Shown here: positions 53,328 to 61,163 of the stretch, piece after piece
Layout of the letters: every line of letters starts with the position of its first letter
Position numbering within the stretch: the first letter of the stretch is position 1
The notes under the pieces: generated by a model
Seen by the model: only the letters and a program-made list of their open reading frames with translations
The model's database searches: none
What the model was told of the DNA's origin: nothing
Assembly (NCBI RefSeq): GCF_904846285.1
Contig: NZ_CAJHAD010000012.1
Span: 1 to 64,000 of the forward strand
From: Psychrobacter immobilis
Lineage (GTDB): Bacteria; Pseudomonadota; Gammaproteobacteria; Pseudomonadales; Moraxellaceae
Reading direction: 5' to 3'
Length of the DNA: 64,000 nucleotides
Made by a program: the position numbers and the translations under genes

Positions 53328-53349
53328 GATTGTTTCATGTGAAACAATC
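53328..53349. other. parS-like ParB-binding site, one mismatch
   Basis: A palindrome with arms GATTGTTTCA and TGAAACAATC around TG. The core TGTTTCATGTGAAACA (53331-53346) differs from the parS consensus TGTTTCACGTGAAACA at one central base. It lies in the gap between a metallophosphoesterase and the TIGR01777 gene and lacks a T-run, so it is not a good terminator. Confidence 0.65.
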
Positions 53350-56681: not shown

Positions 56682-57779
56682 TTATAGGTACGGTGGTGGT
56701 AATAACTGATCACCTACGTTAAGTGGTAGCTCAGAATCAAGCACATAAGCATAGCTGATATTGTCAAAGGTATTAAACACCATCACCATACCAGTTGGCT
56801 CGCTTGGCAAACGTACTGGCGTATCGTTATCCTTGATATCACGTATGACTGCGCCTTTTTGATAAACGGTCAATACATCACCAGGTTTAGCTCCATGTGT
56901 GCTACCTAAATTGATAGCAACCACACTACCTTTAGCGGCTGAACTGATAGAATCCATGACGCGGACAATCATACCGCCACGGTTGACGACAGCAGGCGCT
57001 GGATAAAATACTGGCGGGATAGAATTGTTTAATTCTACAAAAACGCGGTCACCTTCACGGACTTCTTTGCCATAACTGTCAATAAGCTGCAAGCTCGTGA
57101 CACCGTTGGTTTCTGTAGAGGTGACCAAACCAGTAGCAACTTGGGTGACTTCTAGACCAATGATGTTTTGTGTTTTAGGGTCAACATACCTCTCGCCTTC
57201 ACGGTAAACACCATAGCGCTGTCCAACGATAAGTGGTACGCCTTTGGCATAGACTTTATCGCCGCTCGCGGTAATTAGATTGCCTTTTTTCGAGGCTAAG
57301 ATATATGGAGTGGTATTAAAATCTGCTGGATTAACAATGATGGTCTTATCGAGCCAATGCTGAATCGCAGACCATGGAATAGGTGGAATGCTATTAGCGG
57401 TCGACGTGACTGAAAGTGTGCTAGACACTACATTACCCGTTAACTGTTTCTCAACGCCCGCACAACCCTCACCTGTATCAACACCAATCAAAGTTTTACC
57501 TTTAATCACGCATAAGATAAGAATGTCGTTAGGGTAAATAAGGTTAGGGTTTTTGATTTGCTTATTGGTCGCCCAAATCTCTTTCCAGCGCCATGGGCTG
57601 TCTAAGTAACGCCCTGAGATATCCCATAAAGTATCGCCTTTTTTGACGATATAGCGATTGGGCGCATCCGCTTTAATGGTCGGCGGTGGATTATTAGCAT
57701 GGGCAGTGGTCATCAGCATTGCACCACTAAATGTCGTCACCAATAGTGCTTTTACTATCTTTTCTAAGCTCATCTTCAT
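56682..57779 (-). CDS. LysM-domain exported protein
   Basis: About 365 residues. A signal peptide (MKMSLEKIVKALLVTTFSGAML, cut near AHA) precedes a LysM domain (about 40-90; RYIVKKGDTLWDISGRYLDSPWRWKEIW). The rest is a long beta-rich region ending in PLNVGDQLLPP, without a catalytic motif. LysM binds peptidoglycan; in Pseudomonas the equivalent gene sits in the same place upstream of dprA. The start at 57779 or 57773 is preferred over the in-frame ATG at 57815, which would put a polar leader before the signal. Confidence 0.87.
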   Translation of the reverse strand: MKMSLEKIVKALLVTTFSGAMLMTTAHANNPPPTIKADAPNRYIVKKGDTLWDISGRYLDSPWRWKEIWATNKQIKNPNLIYPNDILILCVIKGKTLIGVDTGEGCAGVEKQLTGNVVSSTLSVTSTANSIPPIPWSAIQHWLDKTIIVNPADFNTTPYILASKKGNLITASGDKVYAKGVPLIVGQRYGVYREGERYVDPKTQNIIGLEVTQVATGLVTSTETNGVTSLQLIDSYGKEVREGDRVFVELNNSIPPVFYPAPAVVNRGGMIVRVMDSISSAAKGSVVAINLGSTHGAKPGDVLTVYQKGAVIRDIKDNDTPVRLPSEPTGMVMVFNTFDNISYAYVLDSELPLNVGDQLLPPPYL

Positions 57780-58125
57780 TGTTATATCCACAATATGTAC
57801 CGCTATTAATGCCATAGTTAGGGATATCTAAGTTTATTTTTTACGTCTATGGCTTATTTCTAATTAATAAGTATCAGAAAACATAAATGTAAAAGACTTA
57901 AAATACCGCTATCATAATGTCTATAAAGCAGCTATTCAGTATTATTAACTGATGTGATTGACGGGTTTGATTGCTAAAAAAGCGTCTAGCTTAATGATGA
58001 CCTGCCGACGCTGTTTCTAATATTACAATTATATCTACCATAACACAATCATAAACACTTTATTACAATAGCGTAACCTTCAATTGGATATTAATTTCAA
58101 CGAATATTCGATATATATGGTCTGA
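57780..58125. other. LysM-thrC intergenic region
   Basis: 346 bases without a gene. It contains the thrC terminator (57975-58012) and A/T-rich sequence upstream of the LysM gene. I see no clear promoter for the LysM gene. Confidence 0.5.
57975..58012 (-). terminator. Terminator after thrC
   Basis: On the minus strand AGCGTC (58007-58012) pairs with GACGCT (57981-57986) around a 20-base loop, then a T-run. Confidence 0.65.
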
Positions 58126-59547
58126 CTACACTGGATTTGGCGTAACATGTTGGCGTATTTGCTCAGCGACCAATTCGGCATTATTATCTAATACCACTAC
58201 GTGCTGCGGTAAATCCTCTAAGCCTTCGGTATGGGTTGGGCGGGCGATTTCTATTTGACCAATAGCCTCAACGATAGTATCCGCAAACTTAACTGGCAAT
58301 GCCGTTTCTGCACAGACAATCACCTCGCCCTCGCGCTGCAATTCTTTAGCGACTTTAATACCATCAGCAGTGTGAGGATCGACTAGCTCACCATGCTGCT
58401 CATAAAGCGCTTTAATGGTTTGCAGGCGGTCACTATGGGTCGATTTACCCGCCGCAAAACCATAACGTGTATTAACCGCTTGCATCAAATCAGACAAGTC
58501 AAAACCTTGACCGGATTTCACTCCTTCAAATAACTCATGAACACGCGCGCTGTCTTTATCTAATAAGAGATAGACAAAACGCTCAAAGTTAGAGGCTTTA
58601 GAGATATCCATTGAAGGACTTGAAGTGATATAAGTTTTGGCAGTCGGACGCGGCTGATAAGCACCTTGATTAAAGAAGTCATTGAGCACGTCGTTCTCAT
58701 TGGTCGCGACGATTAAACGCTCAACTGGCAGCCCCATTTCACGGGCGATATGACCGGCACAAATATTACCAAAGTTACCTGATGGTACACTAAAGCTAAC
58801 TTTTTCATCATTATTCGTAGTAACGGCAAAATAGGCTTTAAAGTAGTAAACAATCTGCGCTAGGATACGACCCCAGTTAATCGAGTTGACCGTACCTAAG
58901 TTATAAGCGGCTTTAAATTCTGCATCTTGCTGTAATGCTTTGACGATATCTTGGCAATCATCAAACATACCATCGATGGCGATATTATGGATATTTTTAT
59001 CAGTCAGGCTATACATTTGCGCGCGCTGGAATTCGCTCATTTTGCCATGCGGTGACAACATAAAGACTTCGATATTTTCTTTACCGCGCAGTGCATATTC
59101 CGCCGCACTACCCGTGTCACCACTGGTGGCACCAATGATCGTTATACGCGCGTCTTTTCTTTTCAGCACGTATTCAAAGGCGTTACCTAAGAATTGCATC
59201 GCAACATCTTTAAAGGCTAGCGTTGGACCATTCGACAAGCCTAAAATATACAAACCATCTTCAAGCTTGCGGACAGGAACAATCTCATCAGAACCAAATA
59301 CCTCAGAGGTATAAGTGCGCTCAATAATATCCTGTAAATCAGTCGCAGGAATATCAGTGGCAAAACGCTGCATAATCGCCATTGCCAACTGTGGGTAGCT
59401 AAGCGCGCGCCATTCCGTAAGCGTCGCACTATCAATATTCGGATAGTGCTCAGGCAACATCAAACCACCGTCTGGTGCAAGACCCATTAATAACACATCA
59501 CTAAAATCCATCGGCGTTGTCTGACCACGGGTACTGATATATTTCAT
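58126..59547 (-). CDS. thrC: Threonine synthase
   Basis: PLP enzyme converting O-phosphohomoserine to threonine. 473 residues, the longer class. PLP lysine Lys113 in NGPTLAFKDVAMQFLGN, cofactor-phosphate loop in IIGATSGDTGSAAEYALRG and VPSGNFGNICAGHIARE are intact. It lies 41 bases downstream of rsmB on the same strand, so fmt-rsmB-thrC may be one transcript. In many relatives thrC follows hom; hom is not seen here. Confidence 0.95.
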   Translation of the reverse strand: MKYISTRGQTTPMDFSDVLLMGLAPDGGLMLPEHYPNIDSATLTEWRALSYPQLAMAIMQRFATDIPATDLQDIIERTYTSEVFGSDEIVPVRKLEDGLYILGLSNGPTLAFKDVAMQFLGNAFEYVLKRKDARITIIGATSGDTGSAAEYALRGKENIEVFMLSPHGKMSEFQRAQMYSLTDKNIHNIAIDGMFDDCQDIVKALQQDAEFKAAYNLGTVNSINWGRILAQIVYYFKAYFAVTTNNDEKVSFSVPSGNFGNICAGHIAREMGLPVERLIVATNENDVLNDFFNQGAYQPRPTAKTYITSSPSMDISKASNFERFVYLLLDKDSARVHELFEGVKSGQGFDLSDLMQAVNTRYGFAAGKSTHSDRLQTIKALYEQHGELVDPHTADGIKVAKELQREGEVIVCAETALPVKFADTIVEAIGQIEIARPTHTEGLEDLPQHVVVLDNNAELVAEQIRQHVTPNPV

Positions 59548-59588: not shown

Positions 59589-61163
59589 TTATTCAGCAGT
59601 TTTTTGCAGCAAGGCATAATAAAAGCCATCGCCGCTTTCGCTATCTATTGGTAAGCACTGGCGACCAATCGCTTGTTCTATACCCCAATTGCAATCGTCG
59701 CTAAATTCAACGGCTACTACATTATTATAGTAAGTCATAAAATCCTGCATCTGCTCGACGTTCTCTTGCTTCAAGATAGAACAAGTGACATACAATAAAT
59801 AACCACCAACTTTAAGTTGTGGCCAAAGGTTATGCAAGATATCAGCTTGTAACAATGCCGTTTGCTCGACGTCTTCTTCGGTACGCAAGATACTGATATC
59901 AGGATGACGACGAATCACACCAGTCGCCGTACAAGGTGAGTCTAATAATATAGCGTCAAATACGAGTTTGCTCTTTTTCTTGCCAGCCCCTTGCCATGTC
60001 GTCGCGTCAGCACAGACAATATTGAGCTCAATATTTTTCTCAGCTTGCTGCAAGTCATGCTGACTTAAGTTTAGGCGCTGTAAATTAGTATGAATACGCT
60101 CGATACGTGGCGCTTCATTATCTATCGCAGTCAGCTTTACTTTCGAAATCACAGTCGACGTTTCAGCATTGTCTTGTTTCACGTGAAACAACGGAGACTC
60201 ATTTGAGCTGATTAATTCTAACCAATGAGCTAATTTACCACCCGGCGCGGCACAAGCATCTAAAATGCGGATCTCGTTGTTATTCGTGTCTGTATCGCCG
60301 TCTGCATCATCGTTTTTAACACTCAGCTTATTAAGTAGCGCACTACGGATAAGCGGCGCTGCAAGCTGGGCATGCATGTCTTGTACGCTAGCCGCCCCTT
60401 CAGCGAATTGCGGTAAGGCATTGACTGCGGTACTTTGATATAATCTTAACCCTTTGGTTAATATGCTATTAGCTGTGACTGTATCAGATGAGTTGGATAA
60501 ATTAAAGCCACTTGTTAGCTCAACCAAATCCGCCTCAACTTCAGCTTCTACTAGTGCTTGCTGATAATCCTCTACCGAGGTAACCGCTGTATTCACGCGC
60601 AAAAACATAGGTGCAGGTTGACGTAGACCCTGCATCAGATCGTCATACTGCTCACTCCAATCTTGCTTAAGCTGATAGGCAAGCCAATTCGGTAAGCTGT
60701 GCTTTTTATCACACTTCTTACGGAACTTACTTGGGTTCTTAGCCACTTTACGCAAGATGGCATTAATTAAACCCGTCGCATGCGCAAACTCAATTTCTTT
60801 CGCTGCTTCAACCGTTTCGTGAATTGCCGCATGATCAGCCACTTGCAAATAGAGCAGCTGCGTCAAACCTACTTGAATAGTCGTACGCACTTCTTTTTCA
60901 TCAATCGGGTTATCAGCCAGACTATCGAGTAAGCGCTCAAGGGCATACCATTGGCGCAACGTTGTGAGCAATAACGCATGAGCAAAACCTTTATCCCCAT
61001 CATGCAAACTGTTTAATAGCGGATCAAGGACGCTCGCTAGCGACTGACCATTCTGAATCGCCAGTAAAGTGCGAATGACGCGAACGCGGACGCTACCATT
61101 CATGATAAGGTTGCTTGACGGTTTAAGCTTATTGTTTCTTGGCGCAGTACTGGTTTGTCTCAT
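59589..61163 (-). CDS. rsmB: 16S rRNA (cytosine-967-C5)-methyltransferase
   Basis: Methylates C967 of 16S rRNA with S-adenosylmethionine. The N-terminal part is NusB-like (about 25-165). The methyltransferase part has LDACAAPGGKLAHWLE (SAM site), the catalytic Cys motifs LDSPCTATGVIRRHPDI and VTCSILKQENVEQM. At 524 residues it is longer than the ~430 of E. coli, partly from inserted polar segments (NDDADGDTDTNNNE and NESPLFHVKQDNAETST). The second insertion encodes the DNA palindrome at 60174-60191 (LFHVKQ), an exact parS site. fmt precedes it by 70 bases. Confidence 0.95.
   Translation of the reverse strand: MRQTSTAPRNNKLKPSSNLIMNGSVRVRVIRTLLAIQNGQSLASVLDPLLNSLHDGDKGFAHALLLTTLRQWYALERLLDSLADNPIDEKEVRTTIQVGLTQLLYLQVADHAAIHETVEAAKEIEFAHATGLINAILRKVAKNPSKFRKKCDKKHSLPNWLAYQLKQDWSEQYDDLMQGLRQPAPMFLRVNTAVTSVEDYQQALVEAEVEADLVELTSGFNLSNSSDTVTANSILTKGLRLYQSTAVNALPQFAEGAASVQDMHAQLAAPLIRSALLNKLSVKNDDADGDTDTNNNEIRILDACAAPGGKLAHWLELISSNESPLFHVKQDNAETSTVISKVKLTAIDNEAPRIERIHTNLQRLNLSQHDLQQAEKNIELNIVCADATTWQGAGKKKSKLVFDAILLDSPCTATGVIRRHPDISILRTEEDVEQTALLQADILHNLWPQLKVGGYLLYVTCSILKQENVEQMQDFMTYYNNVVAVEFSDDCNWGIEQAIGRQCLPIDSESGDGFYYALLQKTAE
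60174..60191. other. parS: parS, exact ParB-binding consensus
   Basis: An 18-bp perfect palindrome whose core TGTTTCACGTGAAACA (60175-60190) equals the conserved bacterial parS. It lies inside rsmB, encoding Leu-Phe-His-Val-Lys-Gln in a non-conserved insertion. ParB binds such sites, usually within a few tens of kilobases of oriC, to segregate the chromosome. Confidence 0.88.

Follow-up and report, generated by a model that had tools for sequence, protein, structure and literature searches.

The window, that is, the whole stretch of DNA analysed here, comprises 64,000 nucleotides and corresponds to bases 1–64000 of contig C12 of a Psychrobacter genome. It contains rsmB, whose coding sequence includes an 18-bp perfect palindrome enclosing a 16-bp word that we take to be the parS consensus. 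The features of the window on which the analysis centres are the following.

59589..61163, minus strand: rsmB, encoding a 16S rRNA methyltransferase and hosting the parS site (assigned by Pfam domains and the match to 1sqf)
60144..60206, minus strand: lineage-specific RsmB loop around the parS-encoded FHVK, approximately codons 320–340 (borders approximate; from alignments and a structure model)
60174..60191, no strand: 18-bp perfect palindrome TTGTTTCACGTGAAACAA enclosing the parS 16-mer (direct reading)
60175..60190, no strand: exact, palindromic parS 16-mer TGTTTCACGTGAAACA, a predicted ParB nucleation site
53331..53346, no strand: second parS-like site of the window, with one mismatch, 20.4 kb from dnaA

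Direct reading bore out the initial annotation, which had described a perfect 18-bp palindrome with the parS 16-mer encoding LFHVKQ in rsmB; these residues are codons 325–330. Residues C411 and C461, which we take to be the two catalytic cysteines, were invariant in an alignment of 19 RsmB rows (alignment A1). The product contains the NusB, RsmF/B ferredoxin-like and RsmB/F methyltransferase domains of Pfam, and among solved structures E. coli RsmB (PDB 1sqf) matches it best. In the alignment with 1sqf, codons 319–339 (approximately) stand opposite a 21-residue gap, so that, measured against E. coli, there is a true insertion. The predicted structure has a coil between a helix (309–319) and a strand (341–348); this low-confidence model, built from 19 close homologues, was poor (mean pLDDT 49.7) and was used solely for the helix–coil–strand order across codons 309–348.

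The exact 16-mer occurs once in the genome (3.23 Mb, 79 contigs), where simple base counting predicts about 0.0008 copies. When up to two mismatches were allowed, 13 places were found genome-wide (one exact, ten with one mismatch and two with two) against an expectation of about 0.85 by base counting, and a reversed control pattern gave no match in the whole genome at the same threshold. At up to three mismatches the window itself held two places, compared with 0.26 on average over 100 shuffles, five of which reached two. The second parS-like site of the window lies outside any ORF of at least 80 codons.

parS-like sites around dnaA, and the position of the parA–parB locus

The 13 places are confined to 2 of the 79 contigs, nine on C12 (98,971 bases) and four on C8 (130,336 bases), and are thus not scattered over the genome. 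The dnaA gene lies at C12:73758–75161, on the same contig as the rsmB site and 13.6 kb from it, and the parS-like sites of C12 span −20.4 to +8.1 kb relative to dnaA. In the single-contig genome G028, sites in matching order are found at +29.5, +33.1, +47.3 and +95.0 kb from dnaA. Because of this matching order, the comparison suggests that C8 adjoins C12, which would place the C8 sites at approximately +28, +32, +47 and +95 kb from dnaA. With this placement of C8, the genome carries several parS copies clustered around the replication origin.

The same clustering was seen in five relatives at up to two mismatches. All 14 sites of G027 (−20 to +38 kb) and all 14 of G034 (−68 to +117 kb) were near dnaA, as were 18 of the 19 sites of G035, the one stray having two mismatches. 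Among the matches listed for G028 (14 found), 12 of 12 were near dnaA (−20 to +95 kb). The 16 sites of G021 were all within the first 159 kb, where dnaA lies, or past base 3,332,000 of the same contig, and were counted as around dnaA by their position at both contig ends. With the reversed control pattern, G021, G027 and G034 had a single match each, whereas G028 and G035 had none. An exact parS copy was present in 33 of 36 Psychrobacter genomes and, elsewhere in the order, in 6 of 21 genomes.

A single ParB was found in each of the 12 genomes of the first set, that of the window included, and 30 of the 31 Moraxellaceae genomes searched gave one match each to the ParB family. Together with the distance to dnaA and the clustering of the sites, the single ParB upholds the earlier proposal that the window belongs to an origin-proximal ParABS domain. 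One genome, G106 (genus g31, a single contig listed as 100% complete), had no match to RsmB, DnaA or ParB, and is an odd genome, a case of masking or an artefact. The motifs GERR, GKAR and GHAR were present in 30 of 30 ParBs. When the ParB of the window's genome was compared with the solved ParB 6t1f, the equivalents of R173 and G201 were kept, and Q162 and S172 were replaced by H and A, respectively. PMC7383237 describes R173 and G201 as conserved without exception among ParBs and as key to their specificity for parS, and Q162 and S172 as contact residues common to ParB and Noc. The genome holds ParA and a ParB with the parS-type recognition residues R173 and G201, not Q162 and S172.

The par genes of the genome are arranged as follows.

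G000:C14:38671–41636 (= L127 7671–10636): rsmG–parA–parB, in the window's own genome

Among 30 short ParB loci, parA adjoins parB in 29, and part of rsmG could be seen in 16. None of the 30 ParB loci (3.5 kb each) contained a parS with up to two mismatches.

In the usual ParABS arrangement, parAB stands beside oriC, a common but not defining trait. This arrangement was found in none of the 24 Moraxellaceae genomes with dnaA and parB on one contig: the two genes were 684–1861 kb apart, or 29.9–49.3% of the length (six denominators being rounded genome sizes, the rest contig values). The sample consisted of 31 genomes, six of which, including that of the window, had the two genes on different contigs. 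In other families of the order, parB (best ParB match) was 8.3–63 kb from dnaA in all 16 measurable genomes; this control covered 18 of the 21 sampled genomes, two of them with dnaA and parB on different contigs. Since parB lies far from dnaA and the parS sites cluster at dnaA, parS stayed at the origin and parAB lies apart from it. The displacement of parAB was seen throughout the sampled part of Moraxellaceae.

Coding use and codon uniformity of the palindrome

Of the 13 parS-like sites, eight are inside ORFs and five in no ORF of at least 80 codons. The hosts are rsmB and the genes for riboflavin synthase, MnmE, RecF (two sites), a UPF0029 protein, an ABC-type ATPase and a 2OG-Fe(II) oxygenase. 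Only two frames of the exact palindrome are open, giving FHVK or VSRET, since the third contains TGA; five sites use the FHVK frame and three the VSRET frame. In the RecF gene (L123 6648–7898), the first site encodes FHMK and the second, some 12 codons short of the gene's end, FHVK. A parS within coding DNA is ordinary, since 9 of 10 P. aeruginosa sites are predicted to lie within coding sequences according to PMC4368675.

RsmB relatives in 58 named loci, all from Psychrobacter, showed 69–96% identity. The rsmB site had no mismatch in 48 of these loci, one in seven and two in three. A recent plasmid or phage origin of the site was rejected on account of its presence in rsmB, with 0–2 mismatches, in all 58. 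Codons were counted in 58 aligned genes (the window and 57 loci); L121 was omitted, as the record interrupts its rsmB reading frame, and the L108 row, although the ORF is truncated, includes the site. In L121 (10001–11517, Psychrobacter sp. WY6), the match to rsmB runs across several frames, although the parS word is exact; the frame break may be a sequencing error.

The site codons were strikingly uniform: TTT in 58 of 58 genes, AAA in 58 of 58, GTG in 57, and CAC in 52 with CAT in five, and each of the 52 rows with glutamine at the site used CAA. The uniformity of the site's F and V codons was matched by none of 9 other F and none of 18 other V columns; for the remaining residues, 3 of 57 other L, 4 of 10 H, 1 of 19 K and 2 of 24 Q columns were equally uniform. 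LFHVKQ was the most codon-uniform of 469 six-codon segments in rsmB. At four codons, FHVK was first of 450 segments in rsmB and tenth, tied with HVKQ, of 3345 segments in ten genes of the region. The ribE parS ranked 61st in the larger set. Apart from the mnmE parS, the segments ahead of FHVK are at the start of thrC and in the start region of a LysM gene, and are unrelated to parS.

The mnmE parS (VSCET; L122 18462–19907, site at C12:68741) ranked first of the 3345 segments; its one-mismatch word is conserved still more tightly than the word in rsmB. Codon choice in roughly the first 18 codons of thrC (59494–59547 of the window) was unusually uniform in 58 rows, perhaps reflecting a translation-start or leader constraint. 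Codons 6–22 of the LysM-domain ORF (57750–57800 of the window), around the likely true start, were unusually uniform in 57 rows; the listed start is probably too early.

The residues flanking FHVK on both sides differ in kind and number, and the DNA word is conserved across relatives beyond coding need. That the site codons are among the most uniform of the 3345 segments and that the word is exact in 48 of 58 loci argues that selection acts on the DNA of the rsmB site.

History of the RsmB loop in Moraxellaceae

The family search covered 149 genomes. rsmB DNA was examined from 37 of 40 genomes of genus g36, presumably Acinetobacter, from 13 of 22 of g31 and 6 of 6 of g28, presumably Moraxella and its kin, and from one or two each of g23, g24, g26, g30 and g32; g25, g27, g29, g33, g34, g35 and g37 were left out. 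The rsmB ORFs of relatives were picked by blastp, since searching for C[AS]APGGK failed to recover 19 of 47 loci and a looser motif 6 of 47. Loop length was taken as the number of residues between PGGK and the A-I-D motif; five g31 and two g26 rows were unmeasured, and the g36 rows were read by eye.

The loop had 12 residues and no parS in 37 of 37 g36 rows, 2 of 2 g32 rows and 2 of 2 g30 rows. It had 13 residues in the sole g23 row and 17 in the sole g24 row, both without parS. Lengths were 12–17 residues in g31, where 8 of 13 rows could be measured, 18–22 in the six g28 rows and 21–44 in 69 Psychrobacter rows. A loop parS with up to two mismatches was found in 7 of 13 g31 rows and 5 of 6 g28 rows, and was absent from 7 of these 19 Moraxella-like rows.

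The individual Moraxella-like rows include intermediates. In L180, L183 and L190, the site encodes FHMK and differs from parS at one, one and two positions, respectively; it lies in a 12-residue loop without insertion, and these loops align beside FNPK-like loops of g36. Thus, the insertion is not needed to host parS. The sites of L186–L188 are read as FHVE (TGTTTCACGTGGAACA), and L176 carries the symmetric double change TGTTCCACGTGGAACA. Longer loops without parS also occur: the closest words in L175, in L181 (FHVE) and in L182 have seven, three and three mismatches, respectively, the outgroup row L200 has a 17-residue loop, and L179, L184, L185 and L189 have no site at up to four mismatches anywhere in the gene despite a longer loop. 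All seven rows of the parS branch that lack the site (L175, L179, L181, L182, L184, L185 and L189) have loops of more than 12 residues too.

A quick tree of 88 rows, made with the loop columns excluded and having long branches, placed all loop-parS rows in one branch with support 100. The loop-parS state needs five changes on this tree, which fits, and does not prove, one gain and four losses. Since near-exact parS words stand in short uninserted loops, the site looks older, and the loop appears to have grown around it; the parS word most likely preceded the growth of the loop. This growth may have relieved a strain imposed by FHVK or may have been neutral.

rsmB has also hosted parS elsewhere. 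In 16 of the 37 g36 genomes, a parS with at most one mismatch is present in rsmB outside the loop, 15 times as RRVSRET (at about codons 122–151 of the frames as read) and once, in G150, as RHVSRET near codon 180. No parS with at most one mismatch was found in 671 kb of flanking DNA from 40 loci (37 of g36 and one each of g32, g30 and g26). The genome of G161 has no such site other than the rsmB copy. Five changes on the tree are required to explain this state and, as the g36 rows are related, the 16 carriers reflect a few events, not sixteen.

Interpretation and comparison with known systems

The rsmB site is very probably a genuine chromosomal parS, with its DNA in conserved dual use. We hold with high confidence that it would be a working site whose DNA word is selected and around which the loop was later expanded in Psychrobacter. 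In this scheme, based on comparison of sequences and on known ParABS systems, about 13 predicted ParB nucleation sites would be spread from approximately 20 kb before to 95 kb after dnaA, assuming that C8 follows C12. ParB produced from the distant rsmG–parA–parB operon would load on the palindrome and then spread, after which ParA would move the origin region. Selection would maintain the parS word, and rsmB would tolerate it because the frame of the palindrome reads FHVK in a loop adjoining the SAM-binding motif I. The word may have arisen by point changes in a short loop of the common ancestor of Psychrobacter and the Moraxella-like lineages, and would then have been lost a few times. In Psychrobacter, the residues on either side of it would have expanded to give the loop of 21–44 residues. 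What speaks against this scheme is the loss of the palindrome core in L071, the absence of a loop site at up to two mismatches from 7 of 19 Moraxella-like rows, the equal uniformity of some codon segments unrelated to parS, the low rank of the ribE parS, and the H and A at the equivalents of Q162 and S172.

Several alternatives bear on this reading. If FHVK were kept for a need of the RsmB protein, such as contacts with RNA or SAM, the palindrome would be a by-product of coding. The invariance of F326, H327, V328 and K329 in alignment A1 agrees with this, but the F and V codons are more uniform than those of any other conserved F or V residue (the argument is weaker for H and K, with 4 of 10 and 1 of 19 other columns equally uniform) and the motif is absent from the RsmBs of other genera. 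Moreover, where the protein has changed, as to FHMK or FHVE, the DNA is still within one or two mismatches of parS in L176 (with its symmetric double change), L180, L183, L186–L188 and L190, though L181 (FHVE) has three, and L071 retains the loop as FNVK with the core of the palindrome gone (TGTTTAACGTCAAACA). We therefore consider a protein need very improbable. Even less credible is an operator for a regulator other than ParB: any palindrome could serve as one, but this is the exact parS word, placed in coding DNA, with 12 similar sites clustered around dnaA, and the genome encodes a ParB that carries the main parS-type residues.

That the rsmB site is an ancestral parS, now redundant and slowly drifting while copies nearer dnaA do the work, is unlikely but deserves more weight. 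PMC4368675 reports that, of the four sites nearest oriC in P. aeruginosa, one alone is both required and enough; the present genome has a dozen near copies, and the site has been lost in L071 and in 7 of the 19 Moraxella-like rows. Among all sites up to 10 kb from rsmB in the 58 loci, however, the rsmB site matches the consensus best, the other classes being mostly one or two mismatches off, and in G161 the copy in rsmB stands alone at up to one mismatch. A similarly small chance is given to the view that the loop lengthened in order to host parS. The initial annotation had suggested this for part of the insertion, and it stands in so far as the FHVK core is conserved as DNA amid variable flanks, the length is 12 without parS in all measured g36, g32 and g30 rows, and it grows in the parS-bearing clade. 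Against it stand the near-parS words in the uninserted 12-residue loops of L180, L183 and L190, and the longer loops without parS in L175, L179, L184, L185 and L189 and, outside the clade, in L200; the suggestion is half right.

A working parS with a loop expanded around it would give one DNA stretch under two constraints, a centromere word and a protein loop, and the living intermediates (no insertion, short loop, long loop) make its history unusually readable. With parAB having left the origin and parS having stayed, Moraxellaceae offer a natural test of the usual linkage between parAB and parS. A wider reading, which we put forward only tentatively and think somewhat less likely than its opposite, is that rsmB of Moraxellaceae has been a recurrent centromere host (in three places, with turnover inside the gene), that the Psychrobacter loop was reshaped around parS, that parAB moved to the terminus half, and that the parAB–parS linkage would be dispensable. 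Among the literature matches listed (titles and starts of abstracts), there was no report of chromosomal parS in Moraxellaceae and none of displaced parAB in the family, which is weak evidence of absence; the loop history, the repeated use of rsmB and the displaced parAB may be new.

E. coli RsmB/Fmu (Sun), the protein of 1sqf, belongs by sequence to the same protein family as RsmB of the window, but is without the parS-bearing loop segment. P. aeruginosa has chromosomal parS of the same kind as Psychrobacter, in several copies near oriC and mostly in coding DNA. Its parAB is close to oriC, whereas rsmG–parA–parB of Psychrobacter is far from dnaA; Psychrobacter also differs in having one parS in a protein loop that appears to have grown around it. 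In B. subtilis, a parS lies inside spo0J and, like the rsmB site of Psychrobacter, is translated as part of an origin-proximal gene. The host in B. subtilis is the ParB gene itself, whereas in Psychrobacter it is the gene of an unrelated rRNA methyltransferase, far from parB.
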